A stretch of DNA of 60,104 nucleotides from Nematocida parisii ERTm1. Lineage: Eukaryota > Microsporidia. Positions 217 through 46,362 of the stretch are shown in pieces (positions within the stretch are counted from its first letter, which is position 1; each line of letters begins with the position of its first letter). Both the position numbers and the translations under genes were made by a program. Below the pieces are notes generated by a model that worked only from the letters and a program-made list of their open reading frames with translations, ran no database searches and was not told where the DNA came from. Location: the NCBI RefSeq assembly GCF_000250985.1, contig NW_013524649.1, positions 165,350-225,453 on the forward strand, written 5' to 3'.

Positions 217-3024
217 CTATTTTTTTGGTTTTTGCTCTATTTTCATAATATTTCCATCTTTTACAATGTGAAGTTCTTTATAAAAAGAATTTTTTTCAAT
301 AAAAGTGCAGTAAGATTCCAATGCTTTTTTCTCATCATCGTTTTGGGCAGGCGTTTTAGTTGGTGTTAGTTTAATATTAGATAGAGTCATTTCTTTAAGA
401 GTGGGCATTTTGCTATTAAACATAACAACTCTGTACATATCCATTGGAATGGGAGTAAAAAAGGATGAAACTGTGATTTTCTTAATCTTATTGTGCTCTG
501 CATACTTAAATAACCTATCAGAAATCGTTTCCATCATTCCACAATCATTCGATATATCATAATAACTAATAAATATAATTTCATCTATAACTGTTTCCCG
601 TGTGAATGGAAAGTCAATGCATTTAAGACAATCAATTACATCTTTAAACTTTTTTTTGCCTATATCAATAAATACCTCAAGCTTTGTTTTTTTAAAACTA
701 AAGATAAAAGAATCTTGCTTTGCCTTAGCATTTAATGAGCTGGGCGCCAATTGAAGTCTTATATAACCAAAATTATTATTATTTTTGGATTTTAATTTGC
801 ATAATCCTAAATCATTGTATAATTTTCCGTCTATATTAATCATAAGATTAGGAGAAATAGACTCGCCAAGTGCTTTGTTTTTTCTTACTATATCGTCTGA
901 CTTGTTTAATTCTATTTGTTTCTGTGCAGAAGAGTCTTCTGGCTCAGCTGTTATTCTTAAGTATTCTTCTGGATTCTGCTTAATTTTATCCAAGTCTTCT
1001 ATTTTAAATTCATTTGTATACGAATAGAAAATATTGTGCATAGTTAAAGTAAAAAGTTTATCCATTTTTCTAAGAAAGGAGAAGTCAGGTGAACCTTCAA
1101 AAACTATATTTTGGAGAGTGAATTCGTGTACATTACTAAGCTCTGCTAGGTTTTTAAGTGCAGAAGCGCTCATAAAATCAATGTTGGTTATAGACATTCT
1201 TGACATCCTACTCGCTTTAGCTAATCCAGTTAACAATGGATCTATACACTTTCCATCTATTCCATCTATTTCTACAGTCAATATGCATGATGAGCTTAGA
1301 TCTAACTTAGAATCAAAATCTATAACTGTATTGTTGTAAATATTAAGCGTATATATTCTTGAATTCTTGATTAATTGAGATAATGTACTAGCGAAAATAT
1401 GGGTTCTAGAAAGTGTAAGTGTTTTTACATGATTAAAAATGTCATATTTGCTGAAAACATGTGCCTTTTCTGAGAAGTTAAATCCATTAAGCGTTAAACA
1501 ATTCATGGAGCTTCGTGTGTTTTTATAATACCCTAGCAAAGCATGTGTTATGATTAGGAAGTGCTGGAGTTCTTTAGGGTAAGAAATAGCAACATTTGTT
1601 ATTAAAGAGTTTTTATATAACTCTAGCTGTTTTTTATCTTTTTTTACAATATTGTTTAATACTTTCCATAGTGTGATTCCAAAAAGTTTTTTAGGTTTCA
1701 ACCACAAAGCATTGAAATACATTTCAACTACAACCACATCTTTGTTCTTAATAATTGCATTAATAATTTCTTTATCCTTAGAATAGTTTACTCTTGGTAG
1801 GGCTGGGTTTGACTTAGCAATATCATTTAGCATACCAACCAGTTCTTTTTCTTCTGCAGTGGCACCATCTAGACTAGAATCAATTGTTTCAAATAATTCC
1901 TCTTTAGTCTTTAAATTATTTTCTTCTTTCACAGGAATAGTTGCTGTAGAACCAGAGCTCTGGCCTGCAGCAGGTGATGTGATAGAGAAAATCGCCCCTT
2001 CTTTATTAGGGTTGATTGCTTCAAGTGATTTCTCTGTGCTCTCTAAATTATTTTCTTCTTCCACAGGAATAGTTAGTGTAAAATCATAATTCGGGTCTGC
2101 GGCAGGTGGTGTGATGGTGGAAACTGCTTCTACCTTCTTAATGGATCTAGATTTATCATTAGAATTAATCGTTTTAAATGATGATAAATTAGACTCTAGA
2201 TGCATTTTCTTTTCTTCTTTTTCTTCTTCTTTCTTTATTTCCTTCTTTTCTTTTTCTTCTTCTTTCTCTTTTTGTTCCTCCTTTTCTTTTTCTTTAGTTA
2301 TACTAGAAACTGCATCTATTCCTCTAGATAGGGATGTAGTCTGCTGGTCATCCAAGTCTAATGCAGCATGTGAAGCGCCGGACTCTGTACTTAATTGTGG
2401 TAATTTATGTGCATAAACAGTAGTGAATTTTGTATATTTTGGCGAAGGATCTATAGAAACTCTTTCGTCATTAATATCATCCTCTAACCGTGGATACAAT
2501 CTGCTTCTACTAGCTGTAAAATCTGTAGATACAGTTGCGTTTTTAGCTAAATCATCTTTCTCAACATTTACTGAGGACTGGATACTTTGAGTTTGCTCTT
2601 CTAGTTTTTTAGAATCCCAATCGTAAATACTACCTTGATTTTCGGTAGTAGAAACGTCACCCAATAAAGATGTACTATCTACAGTGTGCCTATTAAATAC
2701 TTCTACTTTAGAAGTGGTTGATGTTGTCGGCGGCACTGTATGATTAAGGGGGCTATTGTCCACAGAAGAACGTGGATTGATAGCAAAAGCAGCAGGCGCC
2801 ACTATTGGTGTAGCTTGGTTTTTGTTCTGTTGTGTGGATGAATGATAAATTCTTTGAGCACTGATAGATGACTTTATTATATCACTTTCTGTGCTATCAT
2901 ATGCCTCGCTGCTAGTTTCACTTTCACTTACACTTATCTCTTTTATTATTTCATATACAACTATTCCAATTGCAATCAAAATGCATAGTAAGAATATAAT
3001 TAATAATATCTTAATGCGCCTCAT
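217..3024 (-). CDS. Large signal-anchored protein with low-complexity stalk and LRR-like C-terminal half (unknown function)
   Basis: 935 aa, ATG at 3024. Residues about 5-27 are a strongly hydrophobic segment after MRRIK, so the protein is probably a type II signal-anchored membrane protein or secreted. Residues about 30-380 are Ser/Thr-rich with a run of Lys/Glu, and carry an imperfect repeat of about 45 residues containing ITPPAA/ITSPAA and TIPVEEENNLE/TIPVKEENNLK. From about residue 450 onward the sequence is ordered-looking, with leucine spacing such as LTLSRTHIFASTLSQLIKNS that resembles degenerate leucine-rich repeats. I do not recognise a named family. Microsporidia, Nematocida included, carry lineage-specific families of secreted or membrane LRR-like proteins, and membership in one is an inference. 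A TATA-like box lies at 3048-3056, supporting this start. Confidence 0.75.
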   Translation of the reverse strand: MRRIKILLIIFLLCILIAIGIVVYEIIKEISVSESETSSEAYDSTESDIIKSSISAQRIYHSSTQQNKNQATPIVAPAAFAINPRSSVDNSPLNHTVPPTTSTTSKVEVFNRHTVDSTSLLGDVSTTENQGSIYDWDSKKLEEQTQSIQSSVNVEKDDLAKNATVSTDFTASRSRLYPRLEDDINDERVSIDPSPKYTKFTTVYAHKLPQLSTESGASHAALDLDDQQTTSLSRGIDAVSSITKEKEKEEQKEKEEEKEKKEIKKEEEKEEKKMHLESNLSSFKTINSNDKSRSIKKVEAVSTITPPAADPNYDFTLTIPVEEENNLESTEKSLEAINPNKEGAIFSITSPAAGQSSGSTATIPVKEENNLKTKEELFETIDSSLDGATAEEKELVGMLNDIAKSNPALPRVNYSKDKEIINAIIKNKDVVVVEMYFNALWLKPKKLFGITLWKVLNNIVKKDKKQLELYKNSLITNVAISYPKELQHFLIITHALLGYYKNTRSSMNCLTLNGFNFSEKAHVFSKYDIFNHVKTLTLSRTHIFASTLSQLIKNSRIYTLNIYNNTVIDFDSKLDLSSSCILTVEIDGIDGKCIDPLLTGLAKASRMSRMSITNIDFMSASALKNLAELSNVHEFTLQNIVFEGSPDFSFLRKMDKLFTLTMHNIFYSYTNEFKIEDLDKIKQNPEEYLRITAEPEDSSAQKQIELNKSDDIVRKNKALGESISPNLMINIDGKLYNDLGLCKLKSKNNNNFGYIRLQLAPSSLNAKAKQDSFIFSFKKTKLEVFIDIGKKKFKDVIDCLKCIDFPFTRETVIDEIIFISYYDISNDCGMMETISDRLFKYAEHNKIKKITVSSFFTPIPMDMYRVVMFNSKMPTLKEMTLSNIKLTPTKTPAQNDDEKKALESYCTFIEKNSFYKELHIVKDGNIMKIEQKPKK

Positions 3025-7136: not shown

Positions 7137-10100
7137 ATGGGAAATACTTTCTTGCATTCACTGAGTCTAACCAACTTTCAGAAATATGCAAATACCACAT
7201 TTGTCTTTTCTCCAAATGGAAATTTGATAACCGGACTGAATGGTTCTGGAAAAAGCACGATTGCATCGGCAATTGCGCTTACACTAGGAGGAACAAGTAA
7301 AACACTGGGAAAGTCTTTGGGTGTGAATGAGCTTATAAAGTATGGAGAAGTAAAAGCAGTCTGTGAGCTAGTTATAAGAACAGGCCATAGAAGTGAAGTG
7401 TCAAAAATAGTAAAAATCAACGGAAAGGAAAGGATGATTGATATAAGCATATCTCGAACAATCACAGCAGCTGGCTCCACATATAAGATAAACAATCTGC
7501 CTGCTACACTAAACCAGGTAAAAGAAATAACAGAATGTTTAAACATACAAATAAATAACTTAGGACAGTTTCTGCCACAGGATAAAGTCACCGAGTTTTC
7601 CACCCTTACAGAAGAAGAGCAACTAGAGACAACGTTAATGGCATGCAACCCAGAATTGTTAGAGAAGAAACGAGAGTTAGAAGAGATTGTGGACAATGTA
7701 GTTGGGTATAGGCAGAAACTGCAGAAGGAGCTAATGCAGCAGACAGAACTAAAAAAGAAAATGGATGTGTTGGAAGAGGAGCAAGCAAAATTAAAAGAAT
7801 TTTTAGACAGAAAAGAGCACATCAGTCTATTGCAGGGAAAAATAAAATGGGTAGAGTACCAGACTATAAAAAATCAAAGAGATCAGTTAAAGACCAAACT
7901 TAAAAAGGAAGAAGCGGTTTATCAAGAGCACCAAAGTAGGATTGAATGCCTAGAAAAAGAATGTGCGAAGGAAACAGAGCAAATAGATAAGATTAAAAGA
8001 GACATAGAGAGCGGTATAAATATATCTGGGTTTGTTCAGTGTGTAGAGGAAATACAAAGGTCTGAAGCCCGGGAGAAATTTAAAAAAGAAGAATTAGAGG
8101 TGCTCAGGAATAGGGAAGCCCGTCTTGCTCGGGAAAAACTTGAAATGCCCCAACCAAGCGGAGTAAAACAGATGCAGCCACCAAAGAAAAAGCTAACTGA
8201 ACATTTGCAGGCAGAGTATTCTTCGTTAGAAGAAGAGTGCAAAAATAGCAAGATTGAAGACAGCACATGGCAAGTAGAGTCGGCGTTAAAAGCATCTGAA
8301 ATAAGAAACATCGAAGTAGAGCTTAGAAGAGAAAGTGAAGTAGAGGGAAGATTAATGGAAGCCTTGAAATCACTGCACAGAGATACATACACTGTTGTAG
8401 AAATGTTGAAAAGGAGCGACAAGAAGTGGGAAGTAGACCTTCCGGCAATTCTAACCATGAAAATAACTAGAGAAGAGTATACTGAAGAGATTTCCAGCCA
8501 GCTGAATGTTCATGCGCTTACATGCTTTGTCTGCCACACTAAGGAATCCTTCCATGAATTTATTCAAGAATTTAAAGAACGAAACAATCTTGCTATAAAT
8601 GTTGTGCAAAAGCAGCAAAGTGATATAGTTTCATCGCAGGCATCAGCAGGAAGTGAATTTGTGCAGTTTGACGATAAGTACAAGATGACATATTTATCGG
8701 ACTGTATAGATGCACCTTCCGCGGTAAAAGAGTTTCTGAACATTTTCTCAAAGCTTTCCCGCATTCCTGTAACAAAACTCTCATTAGCAGATGAGTATGA
8801 GTTTTTTAACAGATATAAGAAAATTAGTCGGATCATATCTAACAAAAAGGTGGTTGAGATAAGAAGGTCGCATTATACTAAAGATGAAACACTCACTATA
8901 TATCCAATACAAAAGGGTATAGACATACTAACCAAGCCATACGATAGCTTGGAGAAAAAAGAAGCACTAAACAGGTTAATTGCAGAGCGGGAAAAAAGAA
9001 CAGAGCATCGGCAGAATGTTCTGAAAAAGCGAGAACTAATTGAAAAACGATTAAAAGAATTAAAGCAGATTAAAGAAACCGACGTGAATGAGCAGGAAAA
9101 GTACGAAAGAATGCAAAGAGCACTGCAAGCATACAAAGAGCGCACAGAGGAAATAACAAAAGAGCGTGAGGAAATCAAAAACAAAATAAAATGCACAGAA
9201 GATGACATAAAAATCATAAAAAAAGAAGAAGTTCTTAAATGGAAGAATCTGCAACTGGCTGCTCTATTTAAAACAGTTGAAGAATTATCAGAGAAATCTA
9301 AGGCAATGAAATCGCAATATGAAAATCTGCAAAGAATACAAGCAGAAGTGCTTGGGGAAAAACAGATTTTAAAGGAACACCACACTGTGATTTTAAAGCT
9401 TAATCAGGAGATTTCAGAATTAAAACATCAGGCAATCATGAAGCAGGCAGAAGCCGATTCTACATACCATGTGTCCAAGGAAAATGATCAGTCAAAAAAA
9501 GAAAAGCTCAAAGCACTTCCCTCCTGTATAAAAACACTCACAACAATGCTTGCTCAGGAAAAAGCTAAGGTAGAGCTTAGCATAGTGGATTATTCTGCAA
9601 TAGAAGAGTATGAGGCGTGCAAGTCGCAATTTCTACAAATGGAAAAGTTTCTTAGAAAAGAAGAGGCCGATAAGGAAAAGTACGAAATAACAAAACATGA
9701 AAAAGAATCTAATCTAAAGGAAGAATTGGATCAGATAATTTCGTGTATAGATAAGAATGCATCGGCTCTTTTCTCTTCTGCTGGAATAGGATCTGAAATA
9801 AGTATTGAATACAACGAGCTACCCCGCAGGTGGAAACTTGTTCTAAAAGTAAGATTTAGAGCAGAAGGAAAGTTAGAAATCCTCTCAGCAGGAAGACATA
9901 GCGGCGGGGAGAAGGCAGTTTCTATTATTCTGTATCTTTTATCCATTCAAAGATTGTCAAATGCCCCCTTTCTACTAGTAGATGAAATAAACCAAGGAAT
10001 GGATGCTGGCCACGAAAGAACAATACACAGCATGCTAGTTGGAAACAGATCCATAAGTGAGAAACAATCTATTGTAATCACGCCAAAACTAATTTCTGAG

Positions 10101-10151
10101 CTAGATTACGCGCCAACCACAAAAGTACATGTAGTTATTGAAACCCAATAG
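7137..10151 (+). CDS. SMC5: SMC5, ATPase of the SMC5/6 complex
   Basis: 1004 aa from the ATG at 7137; two in-frame codons upstream start with TTG and lack support. SMC5 pairs with SMC6 in a ring-shaped ATPase needed for recombination repair and replication-fork stability. It has a Walker A, GLNGSGKST, at 33-41. GQFLPQDKVTEFSTLT is the SMC5-typical block after the first globular segment. Long coiled coils surround a hinge near 420-560. The C-terminal ATPase end has a signature motif, AGRHSGGEKAVS, and Walker B with the SMC5 hallmark DEINQGMD. The signature reads SGGEKAVS where LSGGERSVS is usual. The N-terminal position and DEINQGMD distinguish it from SMC1-4 and RAD50. Confidence 0.95.
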   Translation: MGNTFLHSLSLTNFQKYANTTFVFSPNGNLITGLNGSGKSTIASAIALTLGGTSKTLGKSLGVNELIKYGEVKAVCELVIRTGHRSEVSKIVKINGKERMIDISISRTITAAGSTYKINNLPATLNQVKEITECLNIQINNLGQFLPQDKVTEFSTLTEEEQLETTLMACNPELLEKKRELEEIVDNVVGYRQKLQKELMQQTELKKKMDVLEEEQAKLKEFLDRKEHISLLQGKIKWVEYQTIKNQRDQLKTKLKKEEAVYQEHQSRIECLEKECAKETEQIDKIKRDIESGINISGFVQCVEEIQRSEAREKFKKEELEVLRNREARLAREKLEMPQPSGVKQMQPPKKKLTEHLQAEYSSLEEECKNSKIEDSTWQVESALKASEIRNIEVELRRESEVEGRLMEALKSLHRDTYTVVEMLKRSDKKWEVDLPAILTMKITREEYTEEISSQLNVHALTCFVCHTKESFHEFIQEFKERNNLAINVVQKQQSDIVSSQASAGSEFVQFDDKYKMTYLSDCIDAPSAVKEFLNIFSKLSRIPVTKLSLADEYEFFNRYKKISRIISNKKVVEIRRSHYTKDETLTIYPIQKGIDILTKPYDSLEKKEALNRLIAEREKRTEHRQNVLKKRELIEKRLKELKQIKETDVNEQEKYERMQRALQAYKERTEEITKEREEIKNKIKCTEDDIKIIKKEEVLKWKNLQLAALFKTVEELSEKSKAMKSQYENLQRIQAEVLGEKQILKEHHTVILKLNQEISELKHQAIMKQAEADSTYHVSKENDQSKKEKLKALPSCIKTLTTMLAQEKAKVELSIVDYSAIEEYEACKSQFLQMEKFLRKEEADKEKYEITKHEKESNLKEELDQIISCIDKNASALFSSAGIGSEISIEYNELPRRWKLVLKVRFRAEGKLEILSAGRHSGGEKAVSIILYLLSIQRLSNAPFLLVDEINQGMDAGHERTIHSMLVGNRSISEKQSIVITPKLISELDYAPTTKVHVVIETQ

Positions 10152-10204
10152 ACTAAAAAATCACCATAAGACATTAATTAATAAAGGGTTTCCCCTGTAC
10201 TTCT

Positions 10205-10287
10205 CAAAACAAAATGCCGTCCTTGCGCAGGGGCATGCTGATCATCTCAGTTATGTATTGAAGAGGGGGCGCTAATAGTCCCGGGGA
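10205..10287 (-). ncRNA. U6 spliceosomal snRNA-like gene (compact, altered ACAGAGA box)
   Basis: Read on the minus strand. GAGATGATCAGCA (about 10235-10247) is the yeast U6 segment around the catalytic AGC triad. It is followed by CCCCTGCGCAAGGA, as in human U6. Together they form the U6 internal stem-loop at 10214-10236: ATGCC pairs with GGCAT, CCT with AGG, loop GCGCA, and a two-base bulge on the 3' side. TTTT directly after this stem could be a Pol III stop. Upstream, CAATACA is separated from GAGATGATC by TAACT, so the normally invariant ACAGAGA is either ACTGAGA or interrupted. The 5' part is very short and its end is uncertain. Function in splicing is not shown; it could be a relic. Confidence 0.75.
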
Positions 10288-10776
10288 TATAAAAATAAAA
10301 TAAATATTATACATAAGAACAACTAATTAAATCTGGCAGAAGTTCATGCCAATTTTTATAATAGGCGGGCAATGCAAACATATATCATAGCATGCTTGTA
10401 TTAAATTAAAATTACGATTTTACATCTTATATCTCTTTGTTACGATTTTATTTTTCTAGTAATCGAAAAAGTGCTTATTCAAATAGTCTATAGTACTCTG
10501 TAATATTTATATTTTAGCAATTATAAATTTGTATTCTGCTGTAGCAATATAGATTACTTATGTACTATATCTATATCATCCAGCATACTCTTTTATTCAA
10601 ATGGGCATTCTAGTGTATTAGTGGTGAACTGCCATATATTAGCAGAAAGAGCCTAAAAACAAATATTAAAATTGTAGAATATAGACATTTCTATATTTAG
10701 GCATATATAATGTAAATATTTCTTTTTGATAGTGGGTTTGCATGTAATAGATAGAGTCTAATAGAACATTTTGGTC

Positions 10777-10810: not shown

Positions 10811-11992
10811 ATGCGCATAGGTCTGGAAGATATTATGAAGGGATGTAAAATATTACATCAATTAACACAAACATACAATCAATGCATAGAAAAACAAGAA
10901 TTTTCAATTGTAATAGGGAATACCAGCTGTGACCAGGATTCGTTTATTGGATCTTATGTTTTGGCACTAATGGAAGATAAACTACCGATTATAAATATAT
11001 CGCGGGAATTGTTTCAGCATAAGCACGATCTGTGTTATATAGTTAAGGAAATAGGTTTAGACTTAAATGACTTGGTGTTTCTAGAAAAAAGAGAAAATGA
11101 TCTTTTTTTTATCCGAGGAAATGATCAAGTTGCTTTAGAGTCTCTAAAAATAACTGCAACACTTGTGGATTTTAGCAATCCAGAAGAAGAGCTACTTAAA
11201 ATCAAGCATTTTTATGTTGATAAAATTATAGACCATAGAAAGCTTATAGAAGAGTCTCAAATACACTTTCATGCTAATGAATTATGGATTAACTTAAATG
11301 TTCACTCTTGCTGCACACTGATATTTCACTATATACAGATGCATTATAGGCGAAAAATAGAATCGGCACCTGCTCGGTACATGTTCATATTTCTACTAGC
11401 CATTTCTATTATCACAGACTCTTCTTTTTCAGACCGCCCGCTATATGATTTAGATGCATTTGCATTAGATGCCATAATAGCATTAACTAATGTAAGTAAA
11501 GAAGCCATTATGGATATACACCAAAAAATAAAATTACGCGAAAAGTCTAATCATAAAAAACCAACTAAAGTGATTGTTGCGCTTCGCCATAAAAGGTACA
11601 TGTATCCAGATATGTCAGGAAGATTTTTTAGTATAAGTTCTGTCAAATACCACTATGATGATTGGATTAAATCAAATGGAAAGAAAGAGTTCTTGGGTGG
11701 AATAAAAGAATTTAAAGAGTCAAACAACTATGAATTTTGCGTTATTAACTCAGAATCTCGCGATAAACGAGAAGTGTTCATATACGCAGCACCAAGCAAT
11801 GATTTTATAAGAAAAGTTCTGTATGATGGCAATAAGATCATAAAAAGGCAGATAAATAATGACCCTGAGCTGACTGTATATGAAATAGACAAGGAATATA
11901 AAGGAAAAATAATTTTTCCAAAGATTTTAAATTATCTTAAAGAGTCAACTACAGAAATAGACGACATCATTGAAATACGATTTTTAGATTAA
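10811..11992 (+). CDS. PPX1: Exopolyphosphatase / prune-like DHH-family phosphoesterase
   Basis: 393 aa. PPX1/prune enzymes (DHH superfamily, DHHA2 type) hydrolyse polyphosphate or pyrophosphate-like substrates using two metal ions in the cytosol. Motif I is NTSCDQDSFIGS (the prune/PPX1 NESxDLDS element). Motif III is IIDHRKL, with the DHR of prune. CCTLIFHYI follows, and motif IV is ITDSSFSDRPLY. The C-terminal DHHA2 region carries FFSISSVKY. In motif II, where relatives have VDH, this protein reads LVDFSNP, so one metal or phosphate ligand may be changed. I favour PPX/prune over inorganic pyrophosphatase because of the spacing and the DHR motif. Confidence 0.8.
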   Translation: MRIGLEDIMKGCKILHQLTQTYNQCIEKQEFSIVIGNTSCDQDSFIGSYVLALMEDKLPIINISRELFQHKHDLCYIVKEIGLDLNDLVFLEKRENDLFFIRGNDQVALESLKITATLVDFSNPEEELLKIKHFYVDKIIDHRKLIEESQIHFHANELWINLNVHSCCTLIFHYIQMHYRRKIESAPARYMFIFLLAISIITDSSFSDRPLYDLDAFALDAIIALTNVSKEAIMDIHQKIKLREKSNHKKPTKVIVALRHKRYMYPDMSGRFFSISSVKYHYDDWIKSNGKKEFLGGIKEFKESNNYEFCVINSESRDKREVFIYAAPSNDFIRKVLYDGNKIIKRQINNDPELTVYEIDKEYKGKIIFPKILNYLKESTTEIDDIIEIRFLD

Positions 11993-17844: not shown

Positions 17845-20800
17845 TTATTCAATAGAAGGAAATCCAGCCATTAGCTTCTTAGATTCATTGTATCGGCTTA
17901 ACCCCTCGGAAGTGCCTTCTAAACTATTTGATATGGTTACCCCAGCTTCTTTAAATAGAAGTAAAAGCTCATTTCTTTCATAGTCTTTTAAATCAGCGCA
18001 GATTTTGAAAAAACAGTTTTTTAGCGTGTTAAGGTTTCCTTGCTTTCGGGTTATAAGCATAAGCAGAGACAAGGACAGATTTTCATAATTTTGGTTGCTG
18101 CTTGTGTGTTTGTCTTCAATAGAAGCACTTGTTTTTATATAGAGATACTTTGCCGCATCTGCCATTAGCTCTGAGGAGCTATTTTTTAGCTCTTTTTTAG
18201 CAAAGTCTTTTATTAAACCTACCACAGGATCACTTATAGTGATTTTCTGCAATGTATATGCTAGAACTTTAATTATAAATAGTTTCATTTTGTCATCCAG
18301 CTTAGTGACTGTTGGTAGCTTTATAAGAGCTTTAATAAACTTCTCAGTGAGCGCCAGGTCATTAATCGAGACAATAAAGTCAAATACTATTCTTCTTCTT
18401 TTTTCATCTACATTCTTTCCCTCTTTAGAAGATTTATGGTATGTTTTTGCACTATTTAGCTCTTTGTGCATGTCTGTGCCTGTTCGCTTAAATATTATTT
18501 CCTCTGCGATCTTGTACTCTTCTTGATTTGTGACTGGATTGTGCTCTTTGGTCTCGTGCAGAACTACATCGATTGCATCATAAGCATAGTCTTTTCTGCT
18601 GTCTGCAGTAAGATTGACACCATTAAATGATGAAAGGTCTATTTCTGTTATAAAAAGCGACGCAATGGTGTTTCGCACTGCATTTTTGACAGCAGTGTAA
18701 TGGTTGGGGTCGTATGGTTTTTTTCTGCCGCTTCTGACCTCTTTTTCTGTGTATATTCCATCAAGCTCTATAAGCCGACGAATAAGAAGCGCCAATGCTT
18801 CTTTCTCGGCTCTACTTATAAACGTGCGAACAGTTTTTCGAAGAGTGATCAGAAACTCTTTGTGCCTAACATACATAGGAAGGGTTTGGAGGAATATTGC
18901 ATCATAGATGTGGTCGCTTTCAAGAAATACTGTAATTGGTGGGAATGACAACAGGTGCACGCTTGCAGATACTTTTTCAAATAGCTGGTGCGGTGACTTA
19001 TGCCGTAGAATATCCTGCGAAAAATTCAATTCATTCGGGGAGATTAGTGATTCTTTCAGAAGAAATCCAAGAGAGTTCCACTTTTCAGAGAATATTCGAT
19101 CAGCTAGTTCTTGTGTGCCGTCGTACTGCTTTCCATCAAAGGTTGCTGGGATGTTAATACTTGAAAACAGATTATAGTGTTCCTTGATTGGCAGCTCAAC
19201 GGATCCAGACAGCCTTGATAGATACAGCAGCAGATGAAGTAATTTTATATGCGCCAATGCATATAAAAGAGTATCATATGTTATCCTTTTTTTCCACTGA
19301 ATTGCCTCCTTCACCTTCTTGTATGTAGATTTGTACTCGGTGTTAAGCATTGTAATAAATACTAAAAGGCTCTCTTGGGTTATCTTTACGTTATCAAGCC
19401 TGTGGCCTTGGTCTGCAAGAGAGTCCTCGCCCTTTTCAGAGTCATCATTTGTTTTAGAGCTTTCATCTGAGTCAGATTCTTCATCAGAGTACTTAACATT
19501 CTCCATTTCTGGAACGATTTTTACCTTATCCTTGCTTTTAAGCTCCTTCTTTTGAACATAATTCTTGATATCGGACGGCTTTTTGTTTGTTCCGGCTTCC
19601 CCACTGACTATCGTTCGATTTATAATTGAATTTGCCAAAATTTCAATTGTATCCACAATCTCTAGTGCATCTGCAATAGAAAATATCTCGCAGGAGGTGC
19701 TTGTAAATGAATCAGAGAAGTATCTTATGTATTTAATTGCATCATTAAATCTCTCATTGAAACCACTCATATGCACCTTAAGAAATGCCCAAAAAGCGCG
19801 TGCAAACACAACTGAATTTTTTTCAATTGTTTCTTTTTCTATATACTTGCCTATCATATTGAATGCTGGAGAAAGCCCTTCTGCTGTTAGATGCATGTCA
19901 TTTATCGTAAACATAACAGAGTATAGAACACTGCGGTGTATATTTCGAACAAACAGCCCGGCACACAATTCCTTATAATAATTTACAATGTGCACTCTTC
20001 CAAACAGTTCTATAAACAAATTGCGAATGCTTTTATCCTGCTCAATTTGAGACAGCAGGTCGTACGAGTGCTCGACTGTCACATCTGAAAGAATACACCT
20101 CTCAAAGAGATCTTTGATAATCTGAGAGTATGGAATAGTATCCAAGTACATAATTCGAAACGATCTAACAAATAAAGACAGCTGAACAACACACTCATCA
20201 GACAAAAAAGGCGGAACATCTTTCATCTTTCTCAGTATAAAGAGCGCGATATATGGACTTTCTGCTCTGTGTAGAACATCTAAAAATACTTTCTGAATAG
20301 TTTGGGGACTTAGTTTTTTTAGAGTGCGAATGAGCTGGTCTGCTGTTGCAACAAAGTTTTTATTCCGACAGTAGTACAAAGAAATCTTCTGAATTATCTG
20401 GTCTGCCCTCGAGACTCTTTTAAGGCTTTCCCTTATAGCATTTTCTTTTTTTTCTTTTTCTAATTCCTTAAAGTCAATTTGGAATTTGCTCTTTGACTTC
20501 TCTAGAAGGGTTGTCCCAAATTGCTTGTCCTTTTTTCTAAGAAAATCATCTGAAATTGTTTTTATGGTGCCATTCTCAGAATTATTTCGGATCGATATAA
20601 ATACAGACTTCTTGTTTTTCTCCACACTTTCTTTTCCCTTAAGACGATTCTCATTGATTTGCTTGATTTTTTCATTAACCAGATGTCCTCCTTCTTTATC
20701 ATTTAGTTTGAATTCTTTCTCATTTTTTACTATTTTTGCTTTATTCGCCTCATCTTCTGGGGCATCCTTAGAGGATTTGGCATCTTTACTGGCTTTTCCA

Positions 20801-21630
20801 TCTTTTCTACCGTCTTTTTTATTCTTGTCTTTATTACTGCTTTCTTTGTCTTTTTCATTGTCTGATTTTTTGTTCTTATCTTTACTGCTGCCCTTGTCTG
20901 ATTTTTTAGTACTAGTTTTACTATTTTCATCTTTAGACTTTTCTGCAGGATTTTTAGATGCCTTGTTAGATTTATCCTTAGTAGATAGTTTTTCATTTTT
21001 AGAGTCATTTTTGCTTTTTTTCTTATTAGTCTTCTCTGTACTATTATCACTTATGGAGTCTTTTTCTGCTTGATCATCTAGTTTATTGTTTGAAGCTTTT
21101 TTCTTACTAGGCATTGTATCTTTGCTAGTACTTTTTGAGCTATTGTTTTTATCTGACTTCTTCTTGGGCTCTTCACTATGGTCGCTATCTTTGCTATCAT
21201 CATTGTTACTGTCATCATTGCTCACAGATTCAATATTATCACCTACTTCATCATTCACAGAGCCACTATCACTTATTGGCTCACTGCTTATTTCAGTACT
21301 ATCACTTACTGAGTCACTTACATGCTCACTATTACTATCTTCATTACTACCATCATTGCTTGCTTCAGCACTGTCACTTACATGATCACTATTACTATCT
21401 TCATTACTACTATCATTGCTTGCTTCAGCACTGTCACTTGCAGGATCACTGCTTTCTTCACTTACTTCATTACTACTTGCATTATTATGTGTACTTTCAT
21501 TGTTGCTATCAATAGACTCTTTTGCGCGGCCTTTACCATGTAATTGCTTATTCTGCGCAGATTTATTCTGATTTCTTTTATTTGGCGGCGTTTCTAGCTT
21601 TGTAATTTTTTTGTTCTTATTTTTGTTCAT
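17845..21630 (-). CDS. Large helical protein with Lys/Ser/Asp-rich repetitive N-terminus (unidentified)
   Basis: 1261 aa. Residues 1-320 are low complexity: a basic start, then Ser/Asp/Glu/Asn repeats including two copies of a 20-residue unit (SAEASNDSSNEDSNSDHVS and a variant), then Lys/Ser/Asp-rich sequence. From about 400 to 1240 the protein looks like alpha-helical repeat (HEAT/ARM or MIF4G-like), for example LIRTLKKLSPQTIQKVF and SPYIALFILRKM, interrupted at about 690-750 by another acidic linker. I considered NOC1/MAK21, CWC22, eIF3c and NIP1, and found no decisive motif. A nuclear or nucleolar role is plausible from composition only. It is divergent from MED14, with 104 bp between the starts. 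Confidence 0.7.
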   Translation of the reverse strand: MNKNKNKKITKLETPPNKRNQNKSAQNKQLHGKGRAKESIDSNNESTHNNASSNEVSEESSDPASDSAEASNDSSNEDSNSDHVSDSAEASNDGSNEDSNSEHVSDSVSDSTEISSEPISDSGSVNDEVGDNIESVSNDDSNNDDSKDSDHSEEPKKKSDKNNSSKSTSKDTMPSKKKASNNKLDDQAEKDSISDNSTEKTNKKKSKNDSKNEKLSTKDKSNKASKNPAEKSKDENSKTSTKKSDKGSSKDKNKKSDNEKDKESSNKDKNKKDGRKDGKASKDAKSSKDAPEDEANKAKIVKNEKEFKLNDKEGGHLVNEKIKQINENRLKGKESVEKNKKSVFISIRNNSENGTIKTISDDFLRKKDKQFGTTLLEKSKSKFQIDFKELEKEKKENAIRESLKRVSRADQIIQKISLYYCRNKNFVATADQLIRTLKKLSPQTIQKVFLDVLHRAESPYIALFILRKMKDVPPFLSDECVVQLSLFVRSFRIMYLDTIPYSQIIKDLFERCILSDVTVEHSYDLLSQIEQDKSIRNLFIELFGRVHIVNYYKELCAGLFVRNIHRSVLYSVMFTINDMHLTAEGLSPAFNMIGKYIEKETIEKNSVVFARAFWAFLKVHMSGFNERFNDAIKYIRYFSDSFTSTSCEIFSIADALEIVDTIEILANSIINRTIVSGEAGTNKKPSDIKNYVQKKELKSKDKVKIVPEMENVKYSDEESDSDESSKTNDDSEKGEDSLADQGHRLDNVKITQESLLVFITMLNTEYKSTYKKVKEAIQWKKRITYDTLLYALAHIKLLHLLLYLSRLSGSVELPIKEHYNLFSSINIPATFDGKQYDGTQELADRIFSEKWNSLGFLLKESLISPNELNFSQDILRHKSPHQLFEKVSASVHLLSFPPITVFLESDHIYDAIFLQTLPMYVRHKEFLITLRKTVRTFISRAEKEALALLIRRLIELDGIYTEKEVRSGRKKPYDPNHYTAVKNAVRNTIASLFITEIDLSSFNGVNLTADSRKDYAYDAIDVVLHETKEHNPVTNQEEYKIAEEIIFKRTGTDMHKELNSAKTYHKSSKEGKNVDEKRRRIVFDFIVSINDLALTEKFIKALIKLPTVTKLDDKMKLFIIKVLAYTLQKITISDPVVGLIKDFAKKELKNSSSELMADAAKYLYIKTSASIEDKHTSSNQNYENLSLSLLMLITRKQGNLNTLKNCFFKICADLKDYERNELLLLFKEAGVTISNSLEGTSEGLSRYNESKKLMAGFPSIE
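21313..21449. repeat. 60-bp tandem repeat inside the 1261-aa gene
   Basis: About 2.3 copies with period 60, in frame, encoding the acidic Ser/Asn/Asp unit. The first two copies differ at only a few positions, so the array is recent or recently homogenised and may vary in copy number between isolates. Confidence 0.8.
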
Positions 21631-28691: not shown

Positions 28692-30860
28692 TTATTCTCT
28701 GCTTATGAGATCAAACAAGATGTTCTTTACCACATCATTATCTGGCAGTATTTTAACTGTTTGTTTGCTTAGTGCGCTCGATAGTTCAATTGCAAGGGTC
28801 TTCTCTTCCTCTGAAAGTGTATATTTCAGCACAGATACCTTGCTTAGCAAATCTAAGTGTCTTTGAAGTATCTCTTTCTTCTCTTTTAGTGGCATTTTGT
28901 CTGTGCTTGTGCTTAGCGCTTTCAAAACAACAGAAAGAACCTCAAGCAATAGGTCTGTTTCTGTGGTAGCATTTTCTTGCTGGCTTTCAAACCAATATAC
29001 TATTTGGTCGTTAAATACCTTCCAGTGCTTTATCTGTGAAACTGCCTTGGTGTATACAGTAAATACCACTGAGTGATTATTTCTAAAGTATTCGTAAAAG
29101 AACACATGTAAGTATTGGGCATCTTCTAAATTAGTCTGTTCAGAATAGAACCGGACTATCAGTTTTTCTAGCAGCTCTGTTCTTTGTTCTTCTGTGGGCA
29201 GCCCCGACAGAAGCATTTTTGTAACTGATTTATCCTGAAGGGTAAATTCTACTGTCTTTACCAGCTCAAAAGCCAAATTGAATATATCCCGTCTTTCCCT
29301 AAAAATGGCAGACAAATCAACTAGTGCACATAATGCACTTTGTGAATTCTGCTTTGCCAGAGCCAGCAACTGTTCAAGAGCCTCGTCACAGCTATTTATT
29401 TCAGATGCGTACAACACCAAAAGTCTAATACAACACTCTTTTATATCCAAGTCAGAAGAGAATATTGCAGTTCTGTATTTCATCTCAATCATCTGGTATA
29501 CAGACGGAAAACTTTCAACAGAAAACTCTCTGGCTTTCATAAGCGCCTCTGCGAATAAAACCTGCGTTCTTTCCTCCCCAACCGAAAGCGCTTTTATATA
29601 GAACTTGTCGCTGTGCGATCCGCTGCATGCTTTTATTATCATGTGGCACACCGAGTTTACTACCCCACCCAGCAGTCGCGCTGGCTGCGACAGAATGTAT
29701 AATCCGCACTTTATCAGAAGATTTCTTTCATTGCTCTGAAATACATCGTAGTACTCTAAAAGAGCAAATAGTGCATGGGCCAGAGTACCTTCATACTGAT
29801 CGCTGCTATCAACAGAACAGGACGCATCAGCAATAGACTTTAAAAGAACTGGCATCTCTGGTAGAAATAAATTATCTCTTCCCCTATCTCTGTCTATGTG
29901 CTCAAGTGACACCCACATAAGAAATAAAAGAGATGGTGTAGCTCTTTCTAGAAACTCTTCTGTAAAACCATCTGCATATTCATATCTCTTCATTAGTTCC
30001 TTTAAAATTCTCTCCAAAGATTTGTTGTTTCTGTTTTCCAGATAGAATGCATTTGTGAACATCTCATACTTCCCCAGAAAAACCTCCTCAAAAATCACTT
30101 CAATTCTTTCAATCGACTTTTTTCTTATTTCCGGCACTCTTTCCTCCTCTAATGCTTGTAGTAATCCAGACCTTTGCTCAAGTGAAAGACCGTCCTCCCA
30201 TGGTATAAGAGAAAGCTTGCTCATCACAAAAACCATCCGAACACCTTCGCTTACATCCGCAGCCCTGCTAATTATTGCCTCGATTGTGCTTTTATTTACC
30301 ACAATATACTGCAGTACTAACTTGCGTACTTCTGCTGACGAATCATACCTAAGTAAGTCTTTGAATAGCTTGTAGAACTGTAGCCCATTTTCAATCGCTG
30401 TTTCCTGATACTTCGCTGCTATTCTAACTGCCTGTGTTCTTACATTTACTTCTTTATCAAATAGTTTCTCTCCTATTTTTACCTTTACTATTTCCCACAG
30501 CCTAGGACTAACACTATCTAAGTGCTCCATACAGCTCCAAAGAAGCGAAAGACTATTATACCGCACATGTTTTAATTTTGAATCTATACCCCGCACCAGA
30601 TACTTTATTAAGTTGTGCATAAAATTTCTTCCTGTTTTTGCGTGTTTTAGCCTTTTCATTAGCTCATTCATAAACTGAAGCAGGCTCTTTGGGAGGTCTC
30701 CCTTTTTACATCCTATTATTATGCTGGTGCACTCGCAGAATTCTTTGAATATATGGGTTGTATCTCCTTCTAATATTAATTCTTCCAGTTGTACCAGAGC
30801 CTCTCTTGATTCTTGTATTTGCTCTGTCTGCACTTTATTCAGCAGACTCCCAACACTCAT
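28692..30860 (-). CDS. YCG1: Condensin subunit CAP-G (Ycg1/Cnd3)
   Basis: 722 aa, shorter than yeast Ycg1 (over 1000). CAP-G is a HEAT-repeat condensin subunit that binds DNA with the kleisin and is needed for mitotic chromosome compaction. The N-terminal region has FMNELMKRLKHAK, LIKYLVRGIDSKLKHVRY (the family's FLLRGVESKDKNVRYR) and LFDKEVNVRTQAVRIAAKYQ, the characteristic HEAT repeats. The remainder is helical and diverged. It is divergent from RPB6 with 30 bp between start codons. Cohesin-associated HEAT proteins are the main alternative but lack the RGIDSK block. Confidence 0.8.
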   Translation of the reverse strand: MSVGSLLNKVQTEQIQESREALVQLEELILEGDTTHIFKEFCECTSIIIGCKKGDLPKSLLQFMNELMKRLKHAKTGRNFMHNLIKYLVRGIDSKLKHVRYNSLSLLWSCMEHLDSVSPRLWEIVKVKIGEKLFDKEVNVRTQAVRIAAKYQETAIENGLQFYKLFKDLLRYDSSAEVRKLVLQYIVVNKSTIEAIISRAADVSEGVRMVFVMSKLSLIPWEDGLSLEQRSGLLQALEEERVPEIRKKSIERIEVIFEEVFLGKYEMFTNAFYLENRNNKSLERILKELMKRYEYADGFTEEFLERATPSLLFLMWVSLEHIDRDRGRDNLFLPEMPVLLKSIADASCSVDSSDQYEGTLAHALFALLEYYDVFQSNERNLLIKCGLYILSQPARLLGGVVNSVCHMIIKACSGSHSDKFYIKALSVGEERTQVLFAEALMKAREFSVESFPSVYQMIEMKYRTAIFSSDLDIKECCIRLLVLYASEINSCDEALEQLLALAKQNSQSALCALVDLSAIFRERRDIFNLAFELVKTVEFTLQDKSVTKMLLSGLPTEEQRTELLEKLIVRFYSEQTNLEDAQYLHVFFYEYFRNNHSVVFTVYTKAVSQIKHWKVFNDQIVYWFESQQENATTETDLLLEVLSVVLKALSTSTDKMPLKEKKEILQRHLDLLSKVSVLKYTLSEEEKTLAIELSSALSKQTVKILPDNDVVKNILFDLISRE

Positions 30861-41745: not shown

Positions 41746-43839
41746 CTATTTAACGCGAGCAATTGATCTGGCCAGATTTACAGACTCTGAAATACTTTCA
41801 TATACGCTGTCTGGCGCTTTAAAGCCCTTTATATTACTGGTTATTGTGGGAGTCGACTCGCCAGAGTTAAATATTGCAGATACATTCCCCATTTGGCCAG
41901 TCTTTCCTTTTCGTATCATAAACTGAATCGAGAGCTCTTTTTCCGTGTAGTATATCTCATACGGAACAGACACACCAAGCTTCTTAACCTCTTTCTCAAT
42001 CGATGCCATTTTAAGGACATATCGAATGATCATTGGAATGCTTTCTACGATTAAATCCATTGCCACTAGGCTCTTTCCGATTGACAAAGCAATAAACTCT
42101 TTAAAAATGCTTTTCACTTTTGTTTCTGCATAGACGTCTACAATGGTCACTCCATCATATATAATTGTAATTACAATATCACAGACAGAAAATAGAAGTC
42201 TGCTGTGAGAGATCTCAAGTATTTTCACCCCCAGTATAACTTCCATCCTCTGCACGGCCACTTTAATCTGCTCTAAGTCATCTTTCTGCACCTCTTCCAC
42301 AAGAAGACTTTCTTGCAGGTTTTGTATTTCTGCCTTTTCATTCTCTATTAGCTGTGAGATTTCTTCGTTTTTTTGCTTTATACATGCCAGTTCTGCTGAT
42401 TTTGTTTCTAGGCAGTCTTTTAGCGCGACTTCATCCTTTTTATTCTGCTCCACTTCTGCCACAAATTCATTTACTTCCTCCTGCGTAAGTGTGCCTATTT
42501 TTAGAAGAATCTCTTTCATCGATCTTTCTTTCTTTTCTAGGTCTATTAGATTTGTTTTTTGGATTTCCTCTTTCATTTTTTCAATCTTTTCTGCCAACTC
42601 TGCCTTTTCCTTTTCAAACCCCGCATAAATTCTTTCTGTTTCTTCTAGGAACTCTCTTTCCACGCCAAGTCTTTTCCTGTGCCAGTGAGACTTTCCCTCC
42701 TTTCTTGCATCTGATTTCATTTGGCGCAGCTTTGAGAGAAGAGTGTTCCTGTCAATTGATGAGAGACCTGTACAATCTACCTCTCTTTCAATTACTTCTG
42801 TTTCCTCTCGGGCCTTTTCTATTTCAGCAGAAAGCTTTGAAGATAGTGCATTTTGTGTGTCAATTCTTCTTTGCATGAATTCTTTGTAGTAGATTACATC
42901 AGCAGGTTCTACCTTATTTCGTATTTTAGACAAAGTCTCCCTTCTGTTGCCAAGAGATAAGTTGTCTAAAAATCTTATCCCAGTTTCTGCTAGTATTTCA
43001 CGTATTTTTTTAGTCTCCTCTTTCTTCGTAGTCTCATATTTACTAAGAACCTCTTCAACATTCACTGTATCATACACCAAAGTATTATTATCCGCAGCAC
43101 ACACAATCTCTGATAGCATGTCACTTAAGATGTCATCTCTATCCCCATCCAAAGAGTATTCTGCATTGTTGTAACACTCACTCACTGGAATGTGCTCATA
43201 TGCATCTTTACTTGGTGAAAGTGGCTCTAATATTTCCTCAAGCCTAATACCGCCCTCCTCTTCAGCATTAGCTAAAGATAATACAGACTTATCTCTTTTT
43301 TCATTTACTGGGCTGAGTGCACTCCCCTGGCTCTGTTGAGTATTATTATAACCACTAACAGGTTCATTCGATGCCCTGTTCTGCACAGTGCTATATTGCG
43401 CATTCCTTTCTGGGCTTGCAGTGCATGCTGCAGACTCCTTCTCTGCAAGATGAATATTACAAATTGTTTGCTCCATAGTCCTCTCCCTGTCAACAGGACA
43501 CATGCTCATTCGCCTTTCTTCCAAAGTCTCCTCTGAGTCATCCATAATAAAGTTCTCCTCCTTCTCTTCGCATAAAGGAAGGGTTTCATTTTGTAAAAGC
43601 TCTTCTTCCATCAAATTGTCATCCAGCGAAAGCTCCATCGACATTTTGTTTGGAACTTCCATGCTCATTCCCATTGAGCTGCTTTCTGATTTACTGGTTT
43701 CATCTTTCACCTGAGAATATACAATCTGAGGTTCAAGCGCAAAGCTCACCCTCCGTACAGACGGCCTTCTCTCCTCCATCTCTGCAGGCGGCTGTTCATC
43801 CATTTGGAAGTATTGGTCTATTTCTTTAGACTTTTTCAT
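41746..43839 (-). CDS. SPC105: Kinetochore scaffold KNL1/Spc105/Spc7
   Basis: 697 aa. KNL1 joins the KMN network, recruits PP1 and, through phosphorylated MELT motifs, the Bub checkpoint proteins. RVSF at 30-33 is a textbook PP1-docking motif. MSMEV and MSMELS (about 58-71) resemble MELT repeats, far fewer than in yeast or animals. A long disordered acidic region follows. The Spc7 domain begins near 250 and contains AETGIRFLDNLSLGNRRET, the family's TGIxFxDxL...RR block, then about 250 residues of coiled coil and a C-terminal RWD-like region. It is divergent from the KEN-box micro-protein, and Mis12 lies about 1 kb away. Confidence 0.85.
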   Translation of the reverse strand: MKKSKEIDQYFQMDEQPPAEMEERRPSVRRVSFALEPQIVYSQVKDETSKSESSSMGMSMEVPNKMSMELSLDDNLMEEELLQNETLPLCEEKEENFIMDDSEETLEERRMSMCPVDRERTMEQTICNIHLAEKESAACTASPERNAQYSTVQNRASNEPVSGYNNTQQSQGSALSPVNEKRDKSVLSLANAEEEGGIRLEEILEPLSPSKDAYEHIPVSECYNNAEYSLDGDRDDILSDMLSEIVCAADNNTLVYDTVNVEEVLSKYETTKKEETKKIREILAETGIRFLDNLSLGNRRETLSKIRNKVEPADVIYYKEFMQRRIDTQNALSSKLSAEIEKAREETEVIEREVDCTGLSSIDRNTLLSKLRQMKSDARKEGKSHWHRKRLGVEREFLEETERIYAGFEKEKAELAEKIEKMKEEIQKTNLIDLEKKERSMKEILLKIGTLTQEEVNEFVAEVEQNKKDEVALKDCLETKSAELACIKQKNEEISQLIENEKAEIQNLQESLLVEEVQKDDLEQIKVAVQRMEVILGVKILEISHSRLLFSVCDIVITIIYDGVTIVDVYAETKVKSIFKEFIALSIGKSLVAMDLIVESIPMIIRYVLKMASIEKEVKKLGVSVPYEIYYTEKELSIQFMIRKGKTGQMGNVSAIFNSGESTPTITSNIKGFKAPDSVYESISESVNLARSIARVK

Positions 43840-45528: not shown

Positions 45529-46362
45529 TTACTCTTCATCACTCTCCTCAACAGAGTTTTCTTCCTCGAAGTCTTCTTCTTCTTTGAACTCACCATAGAC
45601 CATATTACTGTCCATCATGGCATTGGTTCTGATACCTCTTTCCTTTGGAAGAGTGATTAAAGACTCACCTGCATTTCCAATAACCATAAGATTGTCTGTT
45701 CTTGTGGTGTACATTCTACCATTTAAGTCCTCCAGAATGGAAATAGAGAATCCACTGATGTGCACTTTAATCTCACGAATAATTCCAACACATCCCAAGT
45801 TCTTTCCTCTAAAGGCATATGCAGTCTTTCCAACCTCAAGAGAGTAGAAGCCCTGTACTTCGCCAGACTCTAAGTCGAATTTAATGCTGTCTCCGATCTT
45901 GATGCTTGGGTCTGCATACTTAATGGTTCTTCCGTCGTTGGTGTGCAGAGTAAGAATACTTCTTCCTTCAAGCCTCTTGCTAAGTACTTTGCAAAGTTTG
46001 AACTTTGCCTCTTCCTTGGTAATTGGCTGCAGACAGAACTTCTTGTTTACGTTGTATAATAATCTGTAGTTCTCATGAATCTTGTCAAAGCTCACTACAT
46101 CCATAACTCCTGCTGGGTACTTTGGGTCCTTTCTTACCTTTCCATCCACCTTCACAAGTCTGTCATTTAAAATGTGTAATACTTCTTTAGTGTTCTGGGC
46201 AAAGCTCAGCTTTCTTCTAACTATTAAGCACAGAGGAAGGCATTCTCTTAGCTTGTGTGGTCCACATCTTGGCCTTGGGGCGAATGTACCTCCTAACTTG
46301 TCAAGTATCCATGAGTTTGGGGCATTCAGTCTCTTTAAATGTTTTCGTGGTCCGTTTACCAT
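45529..46362 (-). CDS. RPS4: 40S ribosomal protein eS4
   Basis: 277 aa. It is a component of the small subunit body. It begins GPRKHLKRLNAPNSWILDKLGG and FAPRPRCGPHKLRECLPL, the family's strongly conserved start, followed by the S4 RNA-binding segment, VDGKVRKDPKYPAGVMDVVS and the central domain with SIKFDLESGEV, then the KOW domain (GKNLGCVGIIREIK). Unusually, the C-terminus carries a 20-residue acidic extension (GEFKEEEDFEEENSVEESDEE) not found in yeast or human eS4. There is no intron at the 5' end. Confidence 0.95.
   Translation of the reverse strand: MVNGPRKHLKRLNAPNSWILDKLGGTFAPRPRCGPHKLRECLPLCLIVRRKLSFAQNTKEVLHILNDRLVKVDGKVRKDPKYPAGVMDVVSFDKIHENYRLLYNVNKKFCLQPITKEEAKFKLCKVLSKRLEGRSILTLHTNDGRTIKYADPSIKIGDSIKFDLESGEVQGFYSLEVGKTAYAFRGKNLGCVGIIREIKVHISGFSISILEDLNGRMYTTRTDNLMVIGNAGESLITLPKERGIRTNAMMDSNMVYGEFKEEEDFEEENSVEESDEE

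Follow-up and report, generated by a model that had tools for sequence, protein, structure and literature searches.

We find that the minus strand of a 60,104-nucleotide stretch of the Nematocida parisii ERTm1 genome (the window; contig NW_013524649.1, C4:165350-225453 in our contig numbering) almost certainly carries a U6 snRNA gene. Judged from the sequence, its product is probably, at odds of roughly two in three, a working U6 that belongs to a minimal spliceosome and has very few substrates. Its partner would be a U2 snRNA whose gene lies on another contig, and this U2/U6 pair, seated on Prp8 and Sm/LSm proteins, would form the core of a strongly reduced spliceosome.

The Rfam U6 model RF00026 was matched by the minus strand at positions 10180-10282 of the window (42.1 bits, E 4.8e-9, cmscan over 901 bases), and the alignment covers model positions 1-105, which is the whole model without truncation. 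A genome search with this model (3,978,357 bases, 11 contigs), in which scoring covered the best 47 of 488 first-look candidates, reported the window locus as its only match at E <= 0.001 (E 5.0e-9); at the same threshold none of 14 control genomes gave a match, the control genomes named elsewhere in the analysis being bacteria and archaea. The U6 core that the initial annotation had placed on the minus strand at 10205..10287 is present, and its resemblance to U6 lies beyond chance, as had been claimed. The place holds and the extent differs slightly, the U2-pairing tail reaching 10198 and the model match 10180. A covariance score below threshold had been named there as a refutation of the identification, and taken literally this applies; the score is 1.9 bits short of the gathering score of 44, so that an Rfam scan of the whole window at gathering scores listed no RNA family, and the E-value together with the U2 pairing described below outweighs this shortfall. 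The folding energy of the 131-nt stretch proved ordinary (z 0.29, with 126 of 200 shuffles folding at least as stably) and was dropped as evidence for the locus, and the case for U6 thus rests on sequence homology and pairing rather than on folding energy.

The U6 homologue lies in a 659-base gap between a convergent gene for an SMC-type protein (7137..10151, plus strand) and a gene with a DHH-domain match (10811..11992, plus strand; 26.9 bits against a cut-off of 28.1). Inspection by eye revealed a putative TATA-like sequence upstream of the match (10302..10311, minus strand) and a run of six Ts that may be an RNA polymerase III stop (10155..10160, minus strand), and no upstream element of at least 8 bases common to U2 and U6 was found within 160 bases. 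Four long minus-strand frames elsewhere in the window (17845-21630, 217-3024, 28692-30860 and 41746-43839, encoding 1261, 935, 722 and 697 aa, respectively) gave no Pfam match at E 1e-4. Introns of other microsporidia are described as largely restricted to ribosomal protein genes (PMC3749934). The ribosomal protein S4e gene of the window (45529-46362, minus strand) is a single open frame whose N-terminal domain is matched from residue 4, and it therefore has no intron near its start.

The strand of U2/U6 helix I, GAUGAUCAGC (10237..10246, minus strand), includes an unchanged AGC catalytic triad at 10237-10239, which lies within AUGAUCAGCA. The internal stem-loop follows at 10214..10236 (minus strand), where in the predicted fold AUGCCCCU and AGGACGGCAU enclose the loop GCGCA with 8 pairs, the outer AUGCC/GGCAU and the inner CCU/AGG, and a two-base AC bulge (10219..10220, minus strand); the intact stem-loop and its outer pairs, already noticed in the initial annotation, were confirmed. 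This bulge corresponds in position to the conserved AU bulge, a binding site for catalytic metal, an equivalence taken from the available text of PMC4424553. There, domain V of group II introns is said to coordinate the catalytic metals through its AGC triad and an AY bulge; the AGC of U6 is accompanied by an AU bulge that most drawings place opposite an unpaired C; and a domain V sequence could stand in for the corresponding segment of a minor-spliceosome RNA. The base at the metal site is C instead of U; AC fits the AY rule, and the predicted fold has no unpaired C opposite. By analogy with domain V, a C would be tolerated at this U6 position. The likeness to domain V (AGC triad, AY bulge, no unpaired C opposite) is confined to form; U6 works in trans, together with U2.

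The ACAGAGA box is altered. Its counterpart in the RF00026 alignment is ACUGAGA (10245..10251, minus strand), with the central A changed to U, and an alternative alignment places CAAUACA with a 5-nt insertion at the box. The alga Cyanidioschyzon merolae is a splicing organism. The available text of PMC10581693 reports that the ACAGA box is 100% conserved in 240 species (230 Saccharomycotina and 10 outgroups), that C. merolae U6 carries an A-to-U change at the central position, and that a change of the central A could allow Watson-Crick pairing with the +4 A of the 5' splice site. Because of the C. merolae variant and the possible +4 A pairing, ACUGAGA is rare but, by analogy, compatible with splicing. 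The initial annotation had called the box broken, of which the alteration stands, whereas breakage is unproven in view of the same change in C. merolae U6 (PMC10581693).

A U2 homologue was found on another contig at C1:356715-356848 (minus strand), in a gap between two open frames. In the genome search RF00004 scored it at 43.4 bits (E 3.3e-7), under the gathering score of 46, and the second-best place in the genome reached only E 0.398; at E <= 10 the model also matched in 7 of the 14 control genomes, in none of them above the cut-off. Rescored on its own locus, the candidate matched the full model with E 1.1e-6. It carries GUGUAGUAUCU, an intact GUAGUA segment of the kind that pairs with the branch site, and an Sm-type AUUUUUG.

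The 3' tail of U6 (10198..10212, minus strand) is able to pair with the 5' end of this U2, as UGAGAAGUA (10198-10206) is exactly complementary to UACUUCUCA near the 5' end of the candidate (9 bp, perfect), with 5 more pairs upstream. This complementarity was first spotted by eye and its statistics were computed afterwards: at least 9 contiguous pairs with U2 were formed by 29 of 19,991 random 35-mers from the window and by 17 of 20,001 mononucleotide shuffles, and a duplex at least as stable as the observed one (-16.3 kcal/mol) was formed by 17 of 10,000 random 35-mers from the window and by 2 of 5,000 dinucleotide shuffles of the tail. Helix II complementarity confirms the identity of the RNAs and suggests upkeep, its probability being not fully independent because such complementarity is partly a family trait. 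An unconstrained cofold of U2 and U6 (-43.8 kcal/mol) contained 6 + 2 pairs of helix I, 8 of the stem-loop and 9 + 5 of helix II, so that helices I and II are both formed, in prediction, within the same genome. In this naked-RNA cofold the U2 segment AGU..GUAU is also paired with U6, namely with the ACU of the box and the preceding AUAC, which counts against the splicing reading: that U2 segment should hold the branch site, and the pairing would need to open for substrates to bind.

Protein components were searched for in the same genome. PF10596 matched one frame on contig C8, and the ATG frame of 1834 aa was identified as Prp8, with the PROCN, U6-snRNA_bdg and U5_2-snRNA_bdg domains above the Pfam cut-offs and RRM_4 just below. 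The frame matched 15 distinct PDB sequences, 14 named Prp8 or S. pombe Spp42 and one an MPN domain protein, and a profile of six Nematocida proteins matched a Prp8 profile built from two members at columns 502-2346 of 2362, the columns before 502 being unaligned. Among seven homologues, five bear Nematocida names (92, 47, 43, 39 and 26% identity), the best being that of Nematocida sp. AWRm78 at 92%, a 90%-identity cluster representative. These five homologues and the open frame suggest that Prp8 has been under long-term selection. We count Prp8 as support for splicing and not as proof, since it has been published in species without splicing.

Eleven Sm/LSm matches were obtained in the genome at E <= 1 (L010-L020), 10 of them above the cut-off and each in an ATG open frame. 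Seven look by eye like LSm1-7, and three others are ambiguous. The remaining Sm protein has SmD2 chains as its best matches (1e-8), while UniRef names the identical N. parisii NEPAR06_0669 Sm protein B; possibly this is the SmB that Desjardins et al. list (PMC4435813). This identity of 100%, and an equally complete one between a helicase encoded outside the window and an N. parisii record, place the genome in N. parisii or very near it. LSm8 was not recognised by eye among the 11 matches, and a set resembling LSm1-7 raises the question of whether mRNA decay and U6 share a single LSm ring. The only PF02889 helicase (L067:2203-5271, contig C2) has a single cassette and is nearer to ASCC3 (643 bits) and Slh1 (592) than to Brr2 (589). 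Nine Nematocida-named relatives of 1002-1077 aa are called ASCC3 (five), BRR2 (one) and uncharacterised or hypothetical (three) by NCBI; they were drawn from proteins of up to 1.75 times the query length, and a double-cassette Brr2 may exist in the genus. The DEAH OB domain matched two proteins, neither above the cut-off, one nearest to Prp43 and the other tentatively nearest to DHX8/Prp22. The earlier description of a genome without spliceosome parts is contradicted by U2, Prp8 and the 11 Sm/LSm matches; among the components proposed there for a search, Prp8, U2 and LSm-like proteins were recovered and U5 gave no match.

The assumed patterns used beside the covariance models for U4, U5 and introns were drawn up by eye. 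No U5 was found by the covariance search at E <= 10 (best 46 of 426 candidates scored), and the pattern CCTTTYACN{20,50}ATTTTT gave 15 rows against 13 in the control, places that we rejected, as no stem was convincing by eye and the count was close to the control. The U4 covariance search yielded weak matches only (E 2.55 and 5.09; best 41 of 216 candidates scored). The U4 pattern YYTTGCGCAG was present at 17 places against 2 in the reversed control; 15 were rejected as lying in or opposite frames of at least 391 aa, one as the antisense of U6 itself, and the non-coding L039 as having no U4-like 5' stem-loop by eye and no relevant Rfam match. At L039 (C2:370250, plus strand), UUCUUGCGCAG is able to form 11 base pairs with the stem-loop strand of U6 and is followed by UGAUCAU, complementary to the U6 core.

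Introns of the GTADGT/TACTAAC type were sought up to about 100 nt. GTADGT, 5-35 bases, TACTAAC, 0-20 bases and AG gave 13 rows against 17 in the reversed control, and the form with 36-66 bases before TACTAAC gave 12 against 11. The two patterns correspond to 14 distinct places (8 + 6), none of which is convincing or extends a conserved gene, and the counts are close to the controls. Nine were rejected as lying in or opposite frames of at least 419 aa, one as lying inside a 77-aa frame that resembles an RNA polymerase subunit by eye, and L021 and L025 as intergenic; L022 has no frame above 108 aa. Among the 14 places, the match at L094 was followed over 80 bases, short of its 3' end. The 63-nt intron-like L098 (C5:100317-100379, minus strand; GTAAGT...TACTAACAG), with its branch motif directly beside the AG, was rejected as part of a degenerate LTR-element remnant, which has a gag-like frame with a CCHC knuckle and, by eye, repeated ends; L098 is compatible with chance, for which base composition gives a rough expectation of about 0.5 such places per genome. 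The negatives for introns, U4 and U5 are soft, covering the best first-look candidates, one motif set and length range, and a genome in which some stretches read N, such as the first 600 bases of C9, C10 and C11.

We favour a minimal spliceosome because the genome has kept Prp8 and Sm-type proteins along with a U2 that matches the U6. Against it, both snRNA scores fall slightly under their gathering scores, no U4, U5 or convincing intron was found, the one PF02889 helicase leans towards ASCC3/Slh1, neither DEAH OB match exceeds its cut-off and LSm8 was not recognised by eye. The step from parts to activity we infer throughout. ACUGAGA would pair by Watson-Crick rules with AGU at +4 to +6 of the 5' splice site, that is GUNAGU, and GUGUAGUAU of U2 would take a UACUAAC branch site. 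Very few substrates would be left, either missed introns or non-coding RNAs, which would explain why gene-based searches saw no introns.

The three options raised in the initial annotation, a splicing RNA, an RNA with a new role and a relic, are all still in play, and the matched U2 shifts the weight towards the splicing RNA. Chance resemblance or host contamination, to which the sub-threshold RF00026 score might point, is for practical purposes already refuted by the genome-wide E-value, the empty control genomes, the flanking parasite genes on a 539-kb contig and the matching U2 on another contig. If splicing had been lost recently, U6, U2 and Prp8 would be decaying remnants without function, a reading that we consider improbable. 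The altered ACAGAGA box, the U-to-C change at the metal site, a gap of 7 bases against the RF00026 model on the upstream side of the box, the scores of both snRNAs and the failure to find U4, U5 or introns would all suit it; decay would, however, be hard to reconcile with an uninterrupted 1834-aa Prp8 frame that has homologues in five named Nematocida records down to 26% identity, with the perfect predicted pairing of helix II and the outer stem, and with an A-to-U change that is the one reported in a splicing alga (PMC10581693).

Slightly less probable still is a U2/U6/Prp8/Sm particle kept for a non-intron job, such as a first-step cleavage forming the 3' end of telomerase RNA. Core RNAs and Prp8 are present without detectable introns, spliceosomal cleavage is described as forming telomerase RNA 3' ends in fission yeast, with data for other fungi (PMC4299874), and Desjardins et al. 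proposed undetected introns or an alternative purpose for retained splicing proteins (PMC4435813). Against such a role, no telomere-like repeat was found in the 70 bases at each of 14 readable contig ends, a lack that may stem from the assembly. A variant of the favoured minimal spliceosome, to which we give the smallest chance of these readings bar chance or contamination, is a stripped-down machine, perhaps lacking recognisable U4 and U5, that would have adopted ACUGA independently, use a group II-like AC metal bulge and serve one or a few non-coding RNAs instead of ordinary mRNA introns.

C. merolae splices introns, whereas none was found in N. parisii. The two share the central A-to-U of the ACAGA box by published description (PMC10581693), and C. 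merolae is described as missing U1 (PMC6461891). Encephalitozoon cuniculi resembles N. parisii in the small protein set of its reduced spliceosome, and its U1 RNA is described as not identified; it has, however, 37 introns with strict motifs (PMC3629993), whereas PMC8476143 describes N. parisii as having none. The Hemiselmis andersenii nucleomorph likewise has no introns and keeps four spliceosomal protein genes, and a matched U2/U6 pair is not mentioned for it in the available text of PMC6461891. Compared with RF00026 U6 in general, the Nematocida RNA has the full-length model match, AUGAUCAGCA with AGC, the internal stem-loop and the U2-pairing tail, and differs in ACUGAGA for ACAGAGA, an AC for an AU bulge and a shortened region upstream of the box.

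The intron-free description of the genus given in the initial annotation is found in print: PMC3749934 has introns and splicing machinery apparently lost altogether from Nematocida, citing its reference 22, presumably Cuomo et al. 2012; N. parisii is called devoid of introns (PMC8476143), and PMC4435813 has canonical splicing lost or reduced in Nematocida. Among the open-licence literature listed, titles and abstract starts mentioned neither a U6 nor a U2 RNA of Nematocida. Prodigal is a bacterial gene finder without an intron model. Genes of nine nematode-infecting microsporidia were called with it in 2023 (PMC10393165), and because it models no introns, these could have been missed in those genomes; "intron" and "splic" never occur in the main text of that paper.

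Microsporidia without splicing are described as keeping 5-10 of 89 components, with SmB, Prp8, Brr2 and Snu13 in most; this retention was thus already known, and the available text of PMC4435813 leaves its reason open. With U2 and U6 that match each other, this question becomes open to test: the RNA active site has been kept, so that the organism either still splices or puts the core to some other use. The altered box also yields a concrete prediction for the 5' splice site, an A at +4. Statements that Nematocida has lost the splicing machinery entirely need revision, and N. parisii may still splice an as yet unfound substrate. If the substrates were non-coding RNAs only, the spliceosome would have outlived the introns of its genome.
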